From Streptomyces oryzae (GTDB taxonomy: Bacteria > Actinomycetota > Actinomycetes > Streptomycetales > Streptomycetaceae): a stretch of DNA of 49,508 nucleotides. Positions 1,804 through 41,110 of the stretch are shown here, one piece after another (position 1 is the first letter of the stretch; every line of letters begins with the position of its first letter). The stretch spans positions 1 through 49,508 of the forward strand of contig NZ_JADKMA010000027.1 of the NCBI RefSeq assembly GCF_017676365.1. Direction: 5' to 3'. The notes below the pieces were generated by a model. It did no database searches, was not told the origin of the DNA, and was given only the letters and a program-made list of their open reading frames with translations. Position numbers and translations under genes: made by a program.

Positions 1804-2982
1804 ATGGCAGCAGCGGAAGAACACGCCGGAGCCGCCGCCGGGGGCCCACTGGCCGGGGTACGGGTCGTGGAGCTGGCCGGGATCGGTCCTGGCCCGTTCG
1901 CCGCGATGACGCTGGCCGACCTGGGCGCCGACGTCGTCCGCGTCGACCGGCCCGGAGGCGGCGCGCTCGCCGTCGCGCCGGAGTACGACGTCACCAACCG
2001 CAACAAGCGCTCCGTGGTCCTGGACCTCAAGCAGCAGGCGGGAGTTGCCGCCGCCCTCTCCCTCGCCGAGCGCGCCGACGTGCTGGTCGAGGGGTTCCGG
2101 CCCGGCGTGGCCGAGCGGCTCGGCGTCGGCCCCGAGGTCTGCCTCGCCCGCAATCCGCGCCTGGTGTACGGCCGGATGACCGGCTGGGGCCAGGGCGGGC
2201 CGCTGGCCCAGCGGGCGGGGCACGACATCGGCTACATCGCGGTCACCGGTGCCCTCGGTATGACGGGACCGGCGGCGGGCCCGCCCGTCGCACCCGGAAA
2301 TCTGCTGGGCGACTACGCCGGCGGCTCCCTCTATCTCGTCATCGGCATCCTGGCCGCGCTGCACCACGCGCGTGGGCCGCAGGGCGCGGGACAGGTCGTG
2401 GACGCGGCGATCGTGGACGGCACCAGCCACCTCACAGCGATGATCCAGGGCCTGCTGGCGGCGGGCAGCTGGCGGGACCGGCGCGAGGCCAACCTGCTGG
2501 ACGGCGGCTGTCCCTTCTACGGCACCTACGCCACCTCCGACGGCGGATTCATGGCCGTCGGCGCCCTGGAGCCCGCGTTCTACGCGGAGTTCGTGCGGCT
2601 GCTCGGCATCGCGGACGAGGCGCCGCCCCGGGAGGACACCGCCGCCTGGGGAGAGCTGCGGGAGCTGATCGCCGCCCGGTTCGCGTCCCGTACCCGCGCG
2701 GAATGGACGGAGATCTTCCAGGACACGGACGCCTGCGTCGCCCCCGTGCTGTCGCTGACCGAGGCGCCCTCCCACCCGCACCTGGCGGCGCGCGGCACCT
2801 ACGTCGAACACAGCGGCATCACCCAGCCGGCCCCGGCACCCCGGTTCTCCGTGACGCCCACCCGTATCGCCAACGGCCCCGCCGAGCCGGGCGCGCGCAC
2901 GGCGGAGGTCGCCCGCGACTGGGACGTACCGGCACTGACCGCATCCGCCGCACCGCGCGAAGGAGACCAGCCCACCCCATGA
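1804..2982 (+). CDS. CaiB/BaiF family III CoA-transferase, alpha-methylacyl-CoA racemase-like
   Basis: A 392-residue enzyme expected to invert the 2-methyl centre of branched acyl-CoAs, so that they can be oxidised by an S-specific dehydrogenase. The N-terminus has the racemase signature VVELAGIGPGPFAAMTLADLGADVVRVDRP. The racemase catalytic pair is visible: His140 in AGHDIGY and Asp170 in LLGDYAGGS, thirty residues apart as in the mycobacterial enzyme. DGGCPFYGTY follows. The reading frame is open much further upstream, but homology begins at the ATG at 1804, which has a G-rich ribosome-binding site. Its stop overlaps the start of the next gene by four bases (ATGA), so the two are translationally coupled. 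A family III CoA-transferase is the alternative, but the His/Asp pair favours racemase. Confidence 0.85.
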   Translation: MAAAEEHAGAAAGGPLAGVRVVELAGIGPGPFAAMTLADLGADVVRVDRPGGGALAVAPEYDVTNRNKRSVVLDLKQQAGVAAALSLAERADVLVEGFRPGVAERLGVGPEVCLARNPRLVYGRMTGWGQGGPLAQRAGHDIGYIAVTGALGMTGPAAGPPVAPGNLLGDYAGGSLYLVIGILAALHHARGPQGAGQVVDAAIVDGTSHLTAMIQGLLAAGSWRDRREANLLDGGCPFYGTYATSDGGFMAVGALEPAFYAEFVRLLGIADEAPPREDTAAWGELRELIAARFASRTRAEWTEIFQDTDACVAPVLSLTEAPSHPHLAARGTYVEHSGITQPAPAPRFSVTPTRIANGPAEPGARTAEVARDWDVPALTASAAPREGDQPTP

Positions 2983-4181
2983 AGCAGCAGACGAACGGGC
3001 AGACCAACCCGCAGACGAACCGGCAGACCCACCGGCAGCTGAAGCGGCAGATCTTCACCGAGGATCACGACGCGTTCCGGCAGACCGTGCGCACCTTCCT
3101 GGCCAAGGAGGTGGAGCCCTACTACGCGCAGTGGGAGCAGGACGGCGTCGTCTCCCGCGAGGTGTGGCTCGCGGCAGGCAGACAGGGGCTGCTGGGGATC
3201 GCGGTGCCGGAGGAGTACGGCGGCGGGGGCGAGCCCGACTTCCGCTACGCCGCAGTGCTCGCCGAGGAGTTCACCCGCGCGGGTGCTCCGGGTCTGGCCA
3301 TCGGGCTGCACAACGACATCGTCGGCCCCTACCTCACCGGGCTGGCGACGGACGAGCAGAAGCAGCGCTGGCTGCCCGGGTTCTGCACCGGCGAGACCAT
3401 CACCGGGATCGCCATGACCGAGCCGGGCGCCGGCTCCGATCTGCAGGGGATCCGCACCACGGCTCAGGACAAGGGCGACCACTGGCTGCTGAACGGCTCG
3501 AAGACGTTCATCTCCAACGGCATCCTCGCCGACCTGGTCGTCGTCGTGGCCAGGACGACGCCCGAGGGCGGCGCGCACGGGCTGAGCCTGCTCGTGGTCG
3601 AGCGCGGCATGGCGGGCTTCGAGCGGGGCCGCAACCTGGACAAGATCGGCCAGAAGGCGCAGGACACCGCCGAGCTGTTCTTCAGCGACGTACGCGTGCC
3701 CAAGGAGAATCTGCTGGGCGAGCTCAACGGCGCCTTCGGGCACCTGATGACCAATCTGGCGCAGGAGCGGATGGCCATCGCCGTCGCCGGGATCGCCGGG
3801 GCCGAGCAGCTGCTGGAGCTCACCACCGCGTACGTCAAGGAGCGCACCGCGTTCGGCCGGCCGCTCGCCAAGCTCCAGCACATCCGCTTCGAGATCGCCG
3901 AACTGGCCACCGAGTGCGCCGTCACCCGCGCCTTCCTGGACCGCTGTATCGAGGAGCACGCCAGGGGCGAACTGGACGCGGTGCACGCCTCCATGGCCAA
4001 GTGGTGGGCCACCGAGCTGCAGAAGCGCGCCGCCGACCGCTGCCTCCAACTGCACGGCGGCTACGGCTATATGAGTGAGTACAGCGTGGCCAGGGCGTTC
4101 ACCGACGGCCGTATCCAGACCATCTACGGCGGGACCACCGAAATCATGAAGGAGATCATCGGACGGTCCCTGCTGAACTGA
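2979..4181 (+). CDS. Acyl-CoA dehydrogenase, long-chain/isovaleryl type
   Basis: A 400-residue FAD enzyme that introduces the 2,3-double bond in the first beta-oxidation step. The core runs from about residue 26 ([16 protein letters not shown]). It contains the FAD/substrate loop [15 protein letters not shown] and ends in [13 protein letters not shown] and [19 protein letters not shown]. The usual C-terminal catalytic Glu of short/medium-chain enzymes is Gly here (IYGG). The base is probably Glu263 in LAQERMAIA, as in long-chain and isovaleryl-CoA dehydrogenases. The ATG at 2979 has AAGGAG upstream and overlaps the previous stop. The first 25 residues are an unusual QTN-rich extension encoded by a tandem repeat. 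Its partner would be electron-transfer flavoprotein, not encoded here. Confidence 0.93.
2988..3047 (+). repeat. Five-unit 12-bp tandem repeat encoding a QTNx-type N-terminal extension
   Basis: Five imperfect 12-base units starting CAGACGAACGGG lie directly inside the 5' end of the acyl-CoA dehydrogenase gene, at 2988, 3000, 3012, 3024 and 3036. In frame they encode [16 protein letters not shown] and QLKR. The units become progressively less similar toward the conserved enzyme core. This is a coding minisatellite that changes N-terminus length in four-residue steps. Confidence 0.8.
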
Positions 4182-4239
4182 GCCTTCCTTCCGCCCCCCG
4201 GGATCCCTCTCCCCGTACCGCTACGAAAGGCACACCCTC

Positions 4240-5454
4240 GTGAGCTCAGAAGCGTTCGTGTACGAGGCCATCCGCACCCCGCGCGGGCGCGGCAAGGCCA
4301 ACGGCGCCCTGCACGGCACCAAGCCCGTCGATCTCGTCGTCGGCCTGATCGGCGAGCTGCGCCGCCGGATGCCGGAGGTGGATCCGCAGGCGATCGACGA
4401 CATCGTGCTCGGCGTGGTCAGTCCCATCGGCGACCAGGGCTCGGACATCGCCAAGATCGCCGCCATCGCGGCCGGGCTGCCGGACACCGTCGCAGGCGTC
4501 CAGGAGAACCGCTTCTGTGCCTCCGGGCTGGAAGCGGTCAACATGGCCGCGGCCAAGGTCCGCTCCGGCTGGGAGGACCTGGTGCTGGCGGGCGGTGTGG
4601 AGTCCATGTCGCGGGTGAAGATGGGCTCGGACGGCGGCGCCTGGTTCAACGACCCGATGACCAGCTTCGAGACCGGTTTCGTCCCGCAGGGCATCGGTGC
4701 CGACCTCATCGCCACCCTGGAGGGCTTCAGCCGCCGCGACGTGGACGAGTACGCGGCACGCTCGCAGGAGCTGGCCGCGCACGCGTGGAAGGAGGGCAGG
4801 TTCGAGCGCTCCGTGGTGCCGGTACGGGACCGCAACGGGCTCACCGTGCTCGACCACGACGAGCACATCCGTCCCGGCACCACCGCCGACACCCTCGCAG
4901 GGCTCGAGCCGTCGTTCGCCGCCATCGGGGACATGGGCGGGTTCGACGCCGTCGCGCTGCAGAAGTACCACTGGGTCGAGAAGATCGACCATGTGCACCA
5001 CGCGGGCAACTCCTCGGGCATCGTGGACGGTTCGGCGCTGGTCGCCATCGGCAGCGAGGAGGTCGGCAGGCGGTACGGGCTGCGCCCGCGTGCGCGTATC
5101 GTCTCCGCAGCCGTCTCGGGTGCTGACCCGACCATCATGCTGACCGGTCCTGCGCCCGCCTGCCGCAAGGCCCTCGCGAAGGCCGGGCTGACGGTGGACG
5201 ACATCGCCGTCGCGGAGATGAACGAGGCCTTCGCGGCGGTGGTGTTGCGGTTCGCACGGGACATGGAGCTCCCGCTGGAGAAGGTGAATGTCAACGGCGG
5301 TGCCATCGCCATGGGGCATCCGCTCGGTGCCACCGGGGCGATGCTGCTCGGTACGTGCATCGATGAGCTGGAGCGCACGGATCAGCGGTACGGGCTGGTC
5401 ACGCTCTGCGTCGGTGGAGGGATGGGGATCGCCACTGTGATCGAACGCCTGTAG
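4240..5454 (+). CDS. Acetyl-CoA C-acyltransferase (thiolase II type, FadA role)
   Basis: A 404-residue thiolase that cleaves 3-ketoacyl-CoA with CoA in the last beta-oxidation step. All active-site elements are present: nucleophilic Cys93 in [13 protein letters not shown], the NEAFA loop, His360 in [15 protein letters not shown], and the second cysteine Cys390 in LCVGGGMG. Length and motif spacing are normal. The GTG at 4240 is chosen because homology starts at once and GAAAGG precedes it. It lies 58 bases after the dehydrogenase and 80 bases before the FadB-type gene, so it is probably co-transcribed. Pairing with a fusion hydratase/dehydrogenase supports a degradative rather than biosynthetic role. 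Confidence 0.95.
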
Positions 5455-30541: not shown

Positions 30542-31609
30542 ATGAAGAGTGCGGTACGGGGGATGGCGGGCATAGCCTGCGCGGGCAGTCTGGTCCTCCT
30601 GGCGGCGGGGTGCGGGGGGCGTTCCACGGAGGACTCCACGGGCGGCGGTTCGGGCAAGGGCGACGACAAAAAGCATTCGGCGGCCGTCGGCGTCGTCAGC
30701 CAGGCCCAGGCCGACAAGCTCGTCGACCACTACGAGAAGATCAACAACAAGGCCAACAAGAACTCCGACCCGAAGCTGCTCTCCACCGTCGAAGGCGGCG
30801 CGGTCTTCCAGCAGAGCAAGGCCACCTTCAAGGTGCAGAAGACCTGGTCGGCGAAGGACCGTGCCGAGTACCGGAACCCGTTCCGCTACGTCGACCGGAA
30901 GTTCTACATCCCCCGGAAGGGGACCGCCGACTGGTTCGTGATGGTGGCGCACTCCAAGTCGCCGGGGGAGAAGAAGGGCAAGTACCCCGGCATCCTCATC
31001 ATGGAGAAGCAGAAGAGCGGCGACTGGAAGATGGTCACCGCCAGCTACAGCGAGACCAAGAAGCTGCCGCGACTCGCCAAGGACAAGGGTGGCTTCGCGG
31101 TGCCGGTCACCAACACCGCGAAGAAGACCGGCGCCCAGTCCCCGGACTCGCTCTCCGACTCGCTGCTGGATCTCTACACCGGACAGGGCGCCTCCGGGAG
31201 CGGTTTCCGTCCGTCCAAGACCACCAAGTGGATCCGTAAGATCCCCAAGGCACAGAACAAGCTCCTGAGCCCCTACGGCGCGGCCGAATTCAGCCGGGGC
31301 GAGCCGACCCACGAGAAGGCGTACGCGCTGCGCACCGCGAACGGCGGCTCGCTCGCCGTTTTCAGTACCCAGGTGCGCGAACACGACCGCGGTACACAGG
31401 TGACGGCGACGATCCACCCGTCCGACAAGATGAAGGTCTATGTCGGCGACACCTCGGGGGCTCCGGCCTTCTTCGTGGACTGGCTGCACATCTCCAGTGC
31501 CTACATCCGCCCGCAGGGCCGGCCCGACCTGCTCGGTTCCGAGTACGAGATGACCGGAGCCGCCGCCGCTACCGACGCGGACGGCAACATGCCCGGCGCC
31601 GACAGCTGA
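30542..31609 (+). CDS. Lipoprotein of unknown function
   Basis: A 355-residue secreted lipoprotein. The signal peptide SAVRGMAGIACAGSLVLLAAGC places the lipidated Cys at residue 24. A Gly/Ser/Asp/Lys-rich tether follows, then a soluble domain rich in Lys and aromatic residues (FRYVDRKFYIPRKGTADWFVMVAHS, SGDWKMVTASYSETKKLPRL). Repeated beta-strand-like alternation suggests a beta-rich fold of the kind seen in actinobacterial surface proteins. I recognise no catalytic motif. The ATG at 30542 follows GGGAG. It is divergent from the ABC-F gene and convergent with the isoprenoid-synthase-like gene. Confidence 0.88.
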   Translation: MKSAVRGMAGIACAGSLVLLAAGCGGRSTEDSTGGGSGKGDDKKHSAAVGVVSQAQADKLVDHYEKINNKANKNSDPKLLSTVEGGAVFQQSKATFKVQKTWSAKDRAEYRNPFRYVDRKFYIPRKGTADWFVMVAHSKSPGEKKGKYPGILIMEKQKSGDWKMVTASYSETKKLPRLAKDKGGFAVPVTNTAKKTGAQSPDSLSDSLLDLYTGQGASGSGFRPSKTTKWIRKIPKAQNKLLSPYGAAEFSRGEPTHEKAYALRTANGGSLAVFSTQVREHDRGTQVTATIHPSDKMKVYVGDTSGAPAFFVDWLHISSAYIRPQGRPDLLGSEYEMTGAAAATDADGNMPGADS

Positions 31610-31637: not shown

Positions 31638-32657
31638 TCATACGGAGGGCTCCTCGGCCAGGCGCGCTCGTGCCTGGCCGGGAACGGTCACCTTTCCCGG
31701 CTCGGCGACGGACTCGGCCACGGGCTCCGGGACGGCCGGGAGCCGGAGCCGCTCGCCGCGCTCCAGCCGCCACCAGATGTACGCCCGCAGCAGCGGCCGG
31801 GGCAGCAGCGCATGCACACGAGTGGGGCGGCGTTTGACGGCGAGGGCGCGCAGCGGGCGCGGCCGCGGCAGAAAGACCCGCGCGACCAGGGCCAGCGTAC
31901 GGTGGTCGGCCGCCGCGAGGTCGCGGCGCAGGTCGGCGCAGAGCCGCTGCCAGATCTCGCCCAGCCGGTCACGGGCACCCTCGGTACCGGCGGACCAGAC
32001 GCACATGCGGTAGAAGTTGCAGGAGTCGTCGGCCACATCCGCTGCGTACCCGACGACGTCACCGGTGAGTTCTCCCATCGCGTACAGGTGTCCGGCGAGC
32101 CGGTCGAAGGCTTCGCTGTGCGGCAGCCCCGCAAGGTGCCGCCCGAAGCGCAGCATGATCCGCACATCGGACGACCGGCCGTGGCAGGCACGAACCAGGT
32201 CACCCACGCCCGGCGCGGCCCGCGAGCCGGTGGCCTCGGTCTCCCAGCGCGCGTACTCCTCCAGCGCACGCAGTTCGGCGAGGGTGGCGGCGTCGTCGCA
32301 TCCGTAGCCGCGCAGCACCTCCTCGATGCCGTCGCGCCACGCCGGGCCTGCCGGGACGCCGTGGGACTGCTCCCGTTCGACGGCGAGGTCACCGAGGTAG
32401 ACCAGAGCCTCCAGATGCAGCAGGGGCGGCCAGTAATAGTCCAGCGCATCGCGCGGGCAGCCGAGTAGTTGCAGGGTGCGTACGCAGTACTGGGTGACGG
32501 CGCCCGCCTTCAGCTGGTGCCGCAGCGTGACGGCGGTGCGCTCCCAGTCCATCGGGGGCTGTGCGGCCAGAGGCCGCTGCCACGCACGGTCGGCCGCACC
32601 GCGCTCTCCACGCGAGAGCAGCGGCCGGCGCACCTTCGTCTTCCTGGTGAGGCTCAT
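31638..32657 (-). CDS. Uncharacterised protein, possible class I isoprenoid-synthase fold
   Basis: A 339-residue, mostly helical, soluble protein. Two segments recall the metal-binding helices of polyprenyl diphosphate synthases. PLLHLEALVYLGDLAVEREQ, near residue 78, sits where the first Asp-rich motif would be but keeps only one Asp. GYAADVADDSCN, near residue 205, mirrors the second motif (G-x-x-x-Q-x-x-D-D-x-x-D) with Asp for Gln and Asn for the last Asp. The N-terminus is basic and the C-terminus disordered. I did not find a clear family and offer this fold as a hypothesis. The ATG at 32657 has GAGGGA upstream. It is divergent from the 40-residue peptide gene at 32887. A hypothetical protein of another helical fold is the alternative. 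Confidence 0.6.
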   Translation of the reverse strand: MSLTRKTKVRRPLLSRGERGAADRAWQRPLAAQPPMDWERTAVTLRHQLKAGAVTQYCVRTLQLLGCPRDALDYYWPPLLHLEALVYLGDLAVEREQSHGVPAGPAWRDGIEEVLRGYGCDDAATLAELRALEEYARWETEATGSRAAPGVGDLVRACHGRSSDVRIMLRFGRHLAGLPHSEAFDRLAGHLYAMGELTGDVVGYAADVADDSCNFYRMCVWSAGTEGARDRLGEIWQRLCADLRRDLAAADHRTLALVARVFLPRPRPLRALAVKRRPTRVHALLPRPLLRAYIWWRLERGERLRLPAVPEPVAESVAEPGKVTVPGQARARLAEEPSV

Positions 32658-32845
32658 ACGGGGGTGTCCCTCGGCATTGGGGAGTGGCGGGCGGACGCCT
32701 GCGGCCCGTGCGGCAGGGGGTCAGCGGGAACGTAACGGGGGTCGGACCTCAACTGACAGGTGCTTGGCAGCAATTCACCGCATCGGGTGGGCAATGCGGC
32801 CTCTACGTTTTTGATCCAGGCGAGCCGGAAATGCCCCGCTCGGCA

Positions 32846-32864
32846 CCGGCCCACTCCGGGCCGG
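32846..32864 (+). terminator. Hairpin with T-run just before the small peptide gene (attenuator-like)
   Basis: CCGGCCC (32846-32852), loop ACTCC, GGGCCGG (32858-32864), followed by CCTTTT, is an intrinsic-terminator shape ending 17 bases before the ATG at 32887. The GAGGAG ribosome-binding site follows immediately. In this position it could attenuate transcription of the peptide gene, or set the 5' end of its mRNA. Confidence 0.5.
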
Positions 32865-32886
32865 CCTTTTCACCGAGGAGAACGAC

Positions 32887-33009
32887 ATGCTGCTGCCCGA
32901 CTTCGATGGCCCCCGCGCTCCCGCGTTGGGCGACGTCCGCAACCCCGCTTCCGACGAGGCCCCCGCGCTGCGCTGGCACGCCGAGGTGTACGAGGGCGAT
33001 CAGGGGTGA
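32887..33009 (+). CDS. 40-residue peptide, candidate precursor or regulatory peptide
   Basis: A short gene with a strong GAGGAG seven bases before its ATG, high GC at codon third positions and its own double-hairpin terminator, so it is probably real. The peptide begins MLLPDFDGPRAPALGDVRNP, then has an acidic Asp/Glu/Ala/Pro segment and ends LRWHAEVYEGDQG. It has one Trp (residue 30) ten residues from the C-terminus, one Tyr, no Cys and no signal peptide. Net charge is negative. I do not recognise a family. It lies between a divergent isoprenoid-synthase-like gene and a co-directional prolyl oligopeptidase, a setting that would suit a ribosomally made, modified peptide. A small regulatory protein is equally possible. 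Confidence 0.6.
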   Translation: MLLPDFDGPRAPALGDVRNPASDEAPALRWHAEVYEGDQG

Positions 33010-33072
33010 CCGGCGCCTGACGCCGGCCGAGTGAGGAACGGCGGGGCCGCGCTGCTTTTCCGCGGCCCCGCC
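33010..33072 (+). terminator. Tandem hairpins after the small peptide gene
   Basis: The first hairpin begins right after the TGA: CCGGCG (33010-33015), loop CCTGA, CGCCGG (33021-33026). The second is a perfect 12-bp stem, GGCGGGGCCGCG (33040-33051) with CGCGGCCCCGCC (33061-33072), and a 9-base T-rich loop. Together they should end transcription of the peptide gene and largely separate it from the peptidase downstream. Confidence 0.8.
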
Positions 33073-33126
33073 TTCCGCTGCGCAACCGCTCTTCCCCCGC
33101 CTGCTCCAACGCTCCGAGGACCCTCC

Positions 33127-35268
33127 GTGCCACCCATGACATCCGCTCACCCGCTCGCCTACCCGCCCGCACCCCGCGAGGACCTCGTCGAAACCCCGCA
33201 CGGGCTGCCGGTCGCCGATCCGTACCGCACGCTGGAGGACTTGGAAGGCGAGGCCGGCCGGGCCTGGGCCGAGGGCCAGGACGCGCTGTTCGCCGCGCAG
33301 CGCGCGACCTGGCCGCAACTGGCCGCCTGGGAACGGCGGCTTGCGGCGGATTCGGCGGCACGGCGCGTGTCCGCACCGGTGTGGCGGGGCAGCCGCTACT
33401 TCACCGAGCGGTATCTGCCAGGACGCGAGCAGGCGGTGCTGTACGTCACCGAGGCGGACGGCACCGAGCGGGTCGTGGTGGACGCGGACGCGGCGGAGCC
33501 GCGGGGCGGGGTCCGGCTGGCAGGATGGCGGCCGTCCTGGGAAGGCGACTTGGTGGCCTGCCAGTTCGCGGTGGACGGTGCCGACACCACACGGCTGGAG
33601 GTGTACGCCGCCGACGGCAGCGGGCTGGTGGACGGACCGGTCGGCCCGCTGCGGCACTCTCCGGTGGCCTGGCTCCCCGGAGGCAAGAGCTTCTACTACG
33701 TCGGGCCCGCCGCTGAGGGGCCGTCCGGTCTGCTCCGGGTCAAGCTGCACCAACTCGGCAGGCCCGCCACGGAGGATGAGGAAGTCTTCGGGGAACAGAC
33801 CGACGGCTTCGCCTACTTCGGGCTGACCGTCGCGCCCGACGGCAGCCGCTTGGCGGTCTCCGTGGCGCGCGGGGTCGCCCGGCACAACGATCTATGGCTC
33901 GCCCGAGATGTGTGGGACGACCCCGCACGGCCGGTCTGGCGGCCCCTCGTGGACGGCGCGGAAACCGGAGCGCTCACCTCCATCCGGCTGCACCGGGACG
34001 GCGGCGCCCGCCTGCACACCGACCGGGAAGCGCCCCGTGGCCGCATCCTGGTCACCGACTGTGTTCTGGCAAAGGGGTGGCGCGAGCTGGTGCCGGAGGA
34101 CCCGCAGGCCGCTCTCGACGAGAGCGTTCTGCTGGATGGGCCCGCGTTGCCCGAGCCGCTGCTGCTGGTGTGCTGGAGCCAGGATGCGACCAGCCGGGTC
34201 ACCGTGCACCGTGCGGCGGACGGACGGCGGACCGGCGAGGTGCCACTGCCCGGCAGTGGAGCGGTCAAGGTGCTGCGGACCCGGCCCGAAGGCGGGCACC
34301 AGGTGTGGTTCACCTACACCGACTTCGGCACGCCGCCCACGGTGTATGTCTTCGACGCCCTCACCGGACAGGTGTCCCGGTGGCCCGGCGAGCAGGCGCT
34401 GCCCCGGCCGCGGGTGCCCGCCGCGGAGACGGCGACGTCCCAGGACCCGCATCCCGAGTCACCGGAGCTGACGGCCCAACAGGTGCGGTACGAGGCCGAT
34501 GACGGGACCCCGGTACTGCTCTTCCTCCTCGGCCCGGCGGACGCCACGCATCCCCAGGCGTCACCCCGGCCGACGCTGCTGACGGGCTACGGCGGCTTCG
34601 GCACCCCGATGCGCCCCGGCTACAACCCGTTCGCCCGGGCCTGGGCCCAGGCAGGCGGCGTCTACGCCGTGGCCTGTGTCCGCGGTGGCGGCGAACACGG
34701 CACCGCCTGGCACGCCGCCGGACGGGGTGCCGCCAAATCGCGTGCTGTGGACGACTTCAACGACGCGGCCCGGTATCTCATCGACCGGAACATCACAGCC
34801 CCGGACCGGCTGGGCGCCTACGGACAGTCCAACGGCGGACTCCTGGTGACCGCCGCCATGACCCGCCGCCCGGAGCTGTACGCCGCCGTGACCGCTCTCG
34901 GACCGCTGTGCGACATGGCGCGCTACGAACGCTTCGGGATCGGCCACACCTGGACCGCCGAATACGGCAGCGCCGCCGACCGCGAGCAACTCGCCGGGCT
35001 GCTGGGCTACTCGCCGTACCACCAGGTGCGGCCGGGCACGCGCTACCCGGCCGTCCTGCTGTGCGTCGCCGACACCGACCACCGCACCGGCGCCCAGCAC
35101 GTCCGCAAGATGTGCGCCGCGCTGCAGCACGCCACCACCGGACCGGGACCGGTGCTGATGCGCCGCACCACGACCGGGGGCCACGCGCACGCTTCCGCAA
35201 GGACGGCGCACGAGCTGGGAACCGACGTCGCCGCCTTTCTGGCCCACCACACCGGCCTGGTGACCTGA
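33127..35268 (+). CDS. Prolyl oligopeptidase family (S9) serine peptidase
   Basis: A 713-residue cytoplasmic peptidase. Residues about 70-430 form a beta-propeller that restricts substrates to short peptides, and the C-terminal third is the alpha/beta hydrolase. The catalytic triad is Ser568 in GAYGQSNGG, an Asp in VADTDHRTG (649 or 651) and His686 in TTGGHAHAS. LLTGYGGFGTPMRPGYNPF and VACVRGGGEHGTAWH are the usual oxyanion and substrate loops. The GTG at 33127 is preferred to the ATG at 33136 because GAGGA lies six bases before it. Some family members process modified peptides in natural-product pathways, but most are housekeeping, and a terminator separates this one from the small peptide gene. 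Confidence 0.92.
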   Translation: MPPMTSAHPLAYPPAPREDLVETPHGLPVADPYRTLEDLEGEAGRAWAEGQDALFAAQRATWPQLAAWERRLAADSAARRVSAPVWRGSRYFTERYLPGREQAVLYVTEADGTERVVVDADAAEPRGGVRLAGWRPSWEGDLVACQFAVDGADTTRLEVYAADGSGLVDGPVGPLRHSPVAWLPGGKSFYYVGPAAEGPSGLLRVKLHQLGRPATEDEEVFGEQTDGFAYFGLTVAPDGSRLAVSVARGVARHNDLWLARDVWDDPARPVWRPLVDGAETGALTSIRLHRDGGARLHTDREAPRGRILVTDCVLAKGWRELVPEDPQAALDESVLLDGPALPEPLLLVCWSQDATSRVTVHRAADGRRTGEVPLPGSGAVKVLRTRPEGGHQVWFTYTDFGTPPTVYVFDALTGQVSRWPGEQALPRPRVPAAETATSQDPHPESPELTAQQVRYEADDGTPVLLFLLGPADATHPQASPRPTLLTGYGGFGTPMRPGYNPFARAWAQAGGVYAVACVRGGGEHGTAWHAAGRGAAKSRAVDDFNDAARYLIDRNITAPDRLGAYGQSNGGLLVTAAMTRRPELYAAVTALGPLCDMARYERFGIGHTWTAEYGSAADREQLAGLLGYSPYHQVRPGTRYPAVLLCVADTDHRTGAQHVRKMCAALQHATTGPGPVLMRRTTTGGHAHASARTAHELGTDVAAFLAHHTGLVT

Positions 35269-40466: not shown

Positions 40467-41027
40467 TCACCAGTTCCCGGCGCCGCCCGTCACCTCGCGG
40501 ACGGCGGGCCGGGCCGCGTCCAGCACGGTCATGAACCAGGTGGAGAACGTGTCGGTCGCGTGCCGCTTCTCCAGCTCGTCCCAGGTGACGAACGCGGTTT
40601 CGGAGATCTCCTCCGGATCGGGCCGCGGCTCGTCACGGAGCAGCCCCACGTACAGGTGGTTGAACTCCTGCTCGACCAGTCCCGAGGCGGGGTCCGGGTG
40701 GTTGTAGCGGACGGTGCCCGCCTCCCGCAGCAGTGAGGGCGCCACGCCCAGTTCCTCCACGACCCGCCGGGTGGCGGCGGCGAACGGCGGCTCGCCCGGA
40801 TACGGGTGACCGCAGCAGGTGTTGGACCACACCCCGGGCGAGTGGTATTTGCCCATGGCCCGGCGCTGGAGCAGTAGTCGCCCCTCGTCGTCGAAGAGGA
40901 AGACGGAGAAGGCGCGGTGCAGCCGCCCCGGGGCCACATGGGCGGAGAGCTTCTCCGCGGTGCCGATCGTCGTCCCGTCCTCATCGACCAGTTCGAGCAT
41001 GATCGGGGCCGCTGAGCTGTTCGCCAT
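40467..41027 (-). CDS. idi: Isopentenyl-diphosphate delta-isomerase, type I
   Basis: A 186-residue Nudix-fold enzyme that interconverts isopentenyl and dimethylallyl diphosphate. Catalytic Cys72 is in WSNTCCGHPYPGE and the acidic pair is in LVEQEFNHLYVG (Glu119/Glu121). His74 and nearby histidines are metal ligands, and RRVVEELGV is the Nudix helix. Length is normal. The ATG at 41027 has AAGGAAC three bases upstream. It is a single-gene unit converging on the HATPase gene. It is the only unambiguous isoprenoid gene in the window, about 8 kb from the isoprenoid-synthase-like gene. Confidence 0.95.
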   Translation of the reverse strand: MANSSAAPIMLELVDEDGTTIGTAEKLSAHVAPGRLHRAFSVFLFDDEGRLLLQRRAMGKYHSPGVWSNTCCGHPYPGEPPFAAATRRVVEELGVAPSLLREAGTVRYNHPDPASGLVEQEFNHLYVGLLRDEPRPDPEEISETAFVTWDELEKRHATDTFSTWFMTVLDAARPAVREVTGGAGNW

Positions 41028-41090
41028 GGTGTTCCTTCGGGTGGGCCTGTGGGCAGCGTGATCCAGTGTGCCGCAGGCAGTGCGATAACT

Positions 41091-41110
41091 CCGCATTCTG
41101 CGGGATTCTG
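41091..41110. promoter_or_regulatory. Dyad and direct repeat upstream of idi
   Basis: CCGCA-TTC-TGCGG (41091-41103) overlaps the direct repeat ATTCTG-CGGG-ATTCTG (41095-41110), with one helical turn between units. It lies 65-85 bases upstream of the idi start, in the AT-richest part of the gap, so it may be an operator. Confidence 0.35.

Follow-up and report, generated by a model that had tools for sequence, protein, structure and literature searches.

What is an isoprenoid-synthase-like enzyme doing beside a gene for a 40-residue peptide? The question is raised by two divergent genes in Streptomyces oryzae, on a stretch of 49,508 nucleotides (contig NZ_JADKMA010000027.1, positions 1 to 49,508; hereafter, the window, meaning the whole stretch). 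The initial annotation had described the 339-residue and 40-residue open reading frames (ORFs) as divergent, with coordinates that we confirmed, and had likened the pair to ComQ and ComX, in which a small peptide is prenylated on a Trp. Our tentative answer is that the larger protein is a tailoring enzyme with a predicted class I terpene synthase fold that transfers an isoprenoid to the divergently encoded peptide, within a pathway for a ribosomally synthesized and posttranslationally modified peptide (RiPP). We propose this role because of the predicted terpene synthase fold, the isoprenoid supply genes found at some relatives, and the repeated occurrence of RiPP genes as neighbors.

Structure prediction bore out the suggestion that the 339-residue protein is a class I isoprenoid synthase. 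The AF2 model (predicted local distance difference test score, 81.6) supports a predicted all-helical fold of this class; all 50 matches listed for it by Foldseek and VIA were class I isoprenoid enzymes, and the top one was 4xlx, a BjKS-type class I terpene synthase. By sequence, too, the family is akin to class I terpene synthases. In hhalign comparisons, which took 17 of the 23 listed terpene synthase matches and 16 of the 26 listed polyprenyl synthase matches, the family aligned with class I terpene synthases (PF19086-like) at the region of the NSE triad (N-S/T-D/E) with a score of 43.3, which none of 100 shuffles reached. With polyprenyl synthases, taken from four genomes, the signal was no higher than in the control. 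The second Asp-rich motif, previously ascribed to the polyprenyl synthase type, is of the terpene synthase NSE type. Family libraries were silent: neither Pfam nor NCBIfam had a match for the enzyme at an E value of ≤1, nor did PADLOC; the curated Pfam terpene synthase models had none at an E value of ≤10 in any of nine family members (set A1); and a sequence search of the PDB returned two rows only, both due to chance.

The motif named in the initial annotation, GYAADVADDSCN, is present in the protein, as is the degenerate first Asp-rich motif that it had noted, in the form D90-x-x-x-E94. Six residues (D90, E94, R161, D200, D207, and N214) are invariant in all 15 aligned members of the family, which is about 300 to 340 residues long. 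The first motif reads DxxxE, not DDxxD/E, throughout these 15 rows. The second has the layout x-D-x-x-x-Y/I-x-x-D with a later N, as in NSE motifs. Its triad is incomplete in the window enzyme (G199, G203, and D207) and complete in the relative P0004 (N, T, and D); the terpenoid-side clade keeps N at the first place in all of its six rows but one, L065, which has D.

When relatives of the enzyme were sought, a scan of the genus matched 9 of 392 genomes, and further, overlapping scans matched 4/394 and 5/394; these counts are lower bounds, since five candidates per genome were scored and G202, a member of the 392-genome set, was found only by a later scan. Among genomes near G000 and near G219, the central genome alone matched (1/81 and 1/135, respectively). 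Plasmids held no match for the enzyme of the window or of G219, and two scans of genome contigs yielded no confirmed relative. Two partial matches, G175 (E = 2.4e-5 over ∼106 residues of a 600-residue frame) and G153 (E = 7.5e-4 over 52 residues), were used for neither the alignment nor the tree, and P0006 was used for the tree only, not being among the 15 aligned rows. In the tree, the window enzyme, P0003 to P0006, G219, and G353 form a clade of seven (support, 99/99), nested in a ten-row clade (100/99) that includes G361, G368, and G298, with a sister clade of six rows. G361 sits on a long branch, so that its placement is unsure; the copy in G298, a genome grouped in the window's genus, is almost identical to P0007, labeled Streptomyces smyrnaeus.

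The surroundings of these relatives sustain the initial annotation's link between the enzyme and small peptides. Three members of the seven-member clade have readable surroundings (the window, G219, and G353), and in all three a small ORF is encoded divergently from the enzyme gene. The one in G219 is an albusnodin-family lasso peptide precursor, followed by genes for a cyclase, B1, B2, and an ATP-binding cassette (ABC) transporter, so that lasso A, B1, B2, and cyclase genes stand beside the relative. In G353 it is a 47-residue ORF with GGGAGG before its ATG, coding-like codon use, and no family match, and a YcaO gene follows. The G361 enzyme gene belongs to a cluster that also has a gene for a class III lanthionine synthetase (LanKC; NF038151, 855 bits), two identical 27-residue ORFs, genes for an ABC transporter and a penicillin amidase, and others of fatty-acid type; it abuts an isopentenyl diphosphate (IPP) isomerase gene without a gap. 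A small precursor-like gene together with a recognized RiPP-modifying enzyme is thus found in G219, G353, and G361, and RiPP machinery of three kinds (lasso, YcaO, and class III lanthipeptide) accompanies three of the five relatives with context in the ten-row clade. Across genomes G001 to G020 there were 25 YcaO matches; as YcaO genes are this rare, chance adjacency is unlikely, although the base rate applies to YcaO only. None of the open-access papers listed in literature searches, judged from titles and abstract openings, described lasso, YcaO, or class III lanthipeptide clusters with a terpene-synthase-like gene.

Some further details of these loci may be recorded. Directly behind the lasso-linked enzyme of G219, a transposase-like ORF pair was seen by eye (L010, 6615 to 7453). 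On the minus strand of L118 (G361), the 27-residue ORFs occupy 2112 to 2195 and 2297 to 2380 and the LanKC gene occupies 2452 to 5010. The cluster resembles an unusual lipidated lanthipeptide cluster, presumably of the lipolanthine-like kind. Of the two other relatives with context, G368 adjoins an acyl-CoA-ligase-type gene, and G298 lies among transposase-like ORFs, with one DUF4158 match below its cutoff.

The sister clade has terpenoid company. Polyprenyl synthase genes are close by in four of its members, G331, G1052, G896, and G202 (in L113, L114, L115, and L015), and G490 adjoins a gene for a Pyr4-TMTC membrane cyclase (PF25129; L068); G729 was left unassigned. Rieske-like genes were also seen by eye among these loci.

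The 40-residue ORF is supported as a real gene because one database protein, P0001, whose longest contig has 1,157 bases, differs from it at a single residue (98% identity); apart from P0001, the peptide is an orphan. Its codon score (0.233) is within the spread seen for long genes of the window (0.306 ± 0.203 for 267 in-frame pieces), unlike the other two forward frames (−0.384 and −0.763); the best antisense frame scored 0.046. GC at codon positions 1, 2, and 3 is 0.80, 0.51, and 0.88. The strong ribosome-binding site that had been claimed is there, with 6 nucleotides between GAGGAG and the ATG, and the peptide is acidic and free of Cys, with W30 as its sole Trp and ten residues after it, just as the initial annotation described. 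The claim of a terminator of its own held in part: a strong hairpin follows the gene (inner stem of 12 pairs, −34.6 kcal/mol), but it has no T run, and a simple terminator scan listed nothing there. Pfam, NCBIfam, and PADLOC had no match for the peptide gene at the limits used. Across the 392 genomes of the genus, the sole other match at an E value of <0.001 was in G004 (3.8e-4, 53% over 30 residues of a 153-residue frame), which we judged from the DNA to be due to chance.

Which residue would accept the isoprenoid? The small ORFs beside the G219, G353, and G361 enzymes, which are not homologous to the window peptide, contain no Trp, contrary to the conserved Trp that the initial annotation had envisaged; a role for Trp as the general acceptor in the family is therefore unlikely. 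Tyr is present in the window peptide (Y35) and in the G219 and G353 peptides, and since Trp is absent from all three of the relatives' neighboring peptides but Tyr occurs in two, we consider Y35 at least as likely an acceptor as Trp. Tyr fails as a general acceptor, as the third of these peptides, that of the class III lanthipeptide cluster, has neither residue. Two Trp-bearing readings at G353 were rejected. A 57-residue frame downstream of the enzyme, with Trp near its end, has a noncoding codon score (−0.43), and a longer reading of the small ORF that would take in a Trp needs a start without a good ribosome-binding site.

The features of the locus are collected in Table 1. Between the two divergent genes, no sigma-70 consensus was found in the 229-bp region. 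The next gene on the plus strand downstream of the peptide encodes an S9 prolyl oligopeptidase; among the window genes examined, the small ORF and this peptidase are the only candidates for RiPP-type content. The peptidase as leader peptidase of the 40-residue peptide is only a suggestion, and the link is unproved because the hairpin lies between the two genes and 14 other prolyl oligopeptidase loci, judged by eye, have no such peptide upstream. A type 1 isopentenyl diphosphate isomerase gene (40467 to 41096, minus strand; NF002995 above cutoff) lies ∼8 kb from the enzyme gene and is perhaps a separate locus, yet in G361 the two kinds of gene abut. A putative lipoprotein gene (30677 to 31609, plus strand) without a Pfam match converges on the enzyme gene and has two more matches within the same genome.

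Table 1. Features of the gene pair and its immediate surroundings (window coordinates)
Feature	Position	Strand	Basis
Class I terpene-synthase-like enzyme gene, 339 aa	31638..32657	-	ORF, predicted fold, family profile match
Second metal motif, NSE-like, G199-D200-VVGYAA-D207-VADDSC-N214	32016..32063	-	hhalign to NSE region
R161-S-S-D-V-R166, possible diphosphate-contacting Arg	32160..32177	-	R161 invariant, 15/15
First metal motif, D90-LAV-E94-RE-Q97, degenerate DDxxD/E	32367..32390	-	D90, E94 invariant, 15/15
Divergent intergenic region, 229 bp	32658..32886	.	Between enzyme gene and peptide gene
GAGGAG, ribosome-binding site of peptide gene	32875..32880	+	Sequence
Peptide gene, 40 aa, candidate RiPP precursor	32887..33009	+	ORF, ribosome-binding site, codon statistics, P0001 match
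GC-rich hairpin 3′ of peptide gene, terminator-like, without T run	33030..33080	+	Fold, −34.6 kcal/mol
Prolyl oligopeptidase (S9) gene, possible leader peptidase	33136..35268	+	PF02897 and PF00326 above cutoff

If the enzyme is a RiPP tailoring enzyme, it would ionize a prenyl diphosphate, with Mg2+ held by D90/E94 and D200/D207 helping to expel the diphosphate; the acceptor would be the peptide rather than water or an internal alkene, and the neighboring prolyl oligopeptidase might trim the product. Several observations weigh against this role. A Pfam scan of 12 of the other window proteins revealed no RiPP-modifying enzyme, the hairpin separates the peptide gene from the peptidase gene, and the relatives' neighboring peptides have no kinship with that of the window and no shared acceptor residue. 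For two of the five relatives with context (G298 and G368), inspection by eye of the stretches fetched showed no RiPP gene. No Foldseek match reached an E value of ≤0.001 (best, 8e-3), and TM-scores by query length were 0.30 to 0.42. Metal binding may be weak in three enzymes, judging from their residues, because N and S/T of the NSE triad are lost in the window (G and G) and in G219 (A and G) and N is lost in G353 (Q and T). Finally, since the sister clade sits in terpenoid clusters, the family may first have made free terpenes.

Alternatively, the enzyme could act as a divergent class I terpene synthase and release a small free terpene or terpene alcohol. The peptide would then be an unrelated neighbor, and the RiPP genes near relatives would stem from hybrid clusters or coincidence. 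We consider this unlikely, though it deserves serious attention: the sequence kinship fits it, as do the polyprenyl synthase genes of the sister clade, the Pyr4-TMTC gene in G490, and the ligase-type gene without a visible RiPP gene at G368. It accounts poorly for the presence of three RiPP classes at three of the five relatives when the base rate (measured for YcaO only) is low, for the same divergent layout seen three times, and for the degenerate N and S/T in the window and G219. A noncatalytic descendant that serves RiPP pathways as a chaperone or regulator by binding the leader peptide or a lipid would explain why the second D of DDxxD and the N and S/T of the NSE triad are gone from the window enzyme, yet it is improbable given the six invariant residues, and the IPP isomerase gene abutting the G361 gene argues for isoprenoid chemistry. 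We likewise give little credence to a ComQ/PalQ-type prenyltransferase acting on W30. The predicted class I fold, the single Trp near the peptide's C terminus, and the distance between metal motifs (110 residues, versus 111 in PalQ, from D89 to D200; PMC10853753) speak for it. Against it, ComQ, PalQ, and Ord1 are described in PMC13290415 and PMC10853753 as having a Gln shortly before the second Asp-rich motif, three residues before it in PalQ (PMC10853753), where all 15 family members have L, I, or V; residues 195 to 200 of the window enzyme read GELTGD, and only G353 has a Gln here, at 199, directly before D200. With no Trp in the peptides of the three RiPP-linked relatives, the Trp-bearing readings at G353 set aside, and a profile similarity to polyprenyl synthases no higher than that of the control, the Trp prenylation proposed in the initial annotation is improbable.

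Returning to the RiPP tailoring role, a wider reading, which we offer with reserve, is that a class I terpene synthase lineage gave rise to peptide-modifying enzymes in at least four kinds of actinobacterial RiPPs (lasso, YcaO-modified, class III lanthipeptide, and the unclassified 40-mer), making terpene-RiPP hybrids without Trp specificity. If true, this branch in lasso, YcaO, and lanthipeptide clusters would be a new source of lipidated RiPPs, with Tyr or other residues as possible acceptors, and the unannotated family would be a handle for locating terpene-RiPP hybrid clusters missed by the Pfam and NCBIfam models.

Of the systems already known, class I terpene synthases, among them those of the BjKS type and the PF19086 family of the same genomes, share with the window enzyme the predicted fold and the profile of the NSE region. 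Unlike them, the enzyme lacks a Pfam match, has a single-Asp first motif and a degenerate NSE triad, and has relatives in RiPP neighborhoods. RiPP prenylation, including that of Tyr, is known chemistry from ABBA-type cyanobactin prenyltransferases and the lanthipeptide enzyme MppC (PMC12715784 and PMC10373908), but ABBA-type peptide prenyltransferases have a different (alpha-beta-beta-alpha) fold from the class I fold predicted here. The peptide prenyltransferases of class I fold named in section 9 of PMC13290415 are ComQ, PalQ, and ChrPC, all Trp directed. These Trp prenyltransferases resembling trans-isoprenyl diphosphate synthases (for ChrPC, its P domain) combine, as does the window pair, a class I isoprenoid fold with a small peptide gene alongside (PMC10853753 and PMC13290415). 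The window family differs in lacking the Gln before the second motif, in its terpene synthase rather than polyprenyl synthase signature, and in relatives that stand beside Trp-less peptides across three RiPP classes. Compared by reported features, not sequences, the enzyme may work like ComQ, PalQ, and ChrPC, but we do not file it as a member of their group; its relatives in G219 and G361 lie in clusters of the albusnodin-family lasso and class III lanthipeptide kinds.
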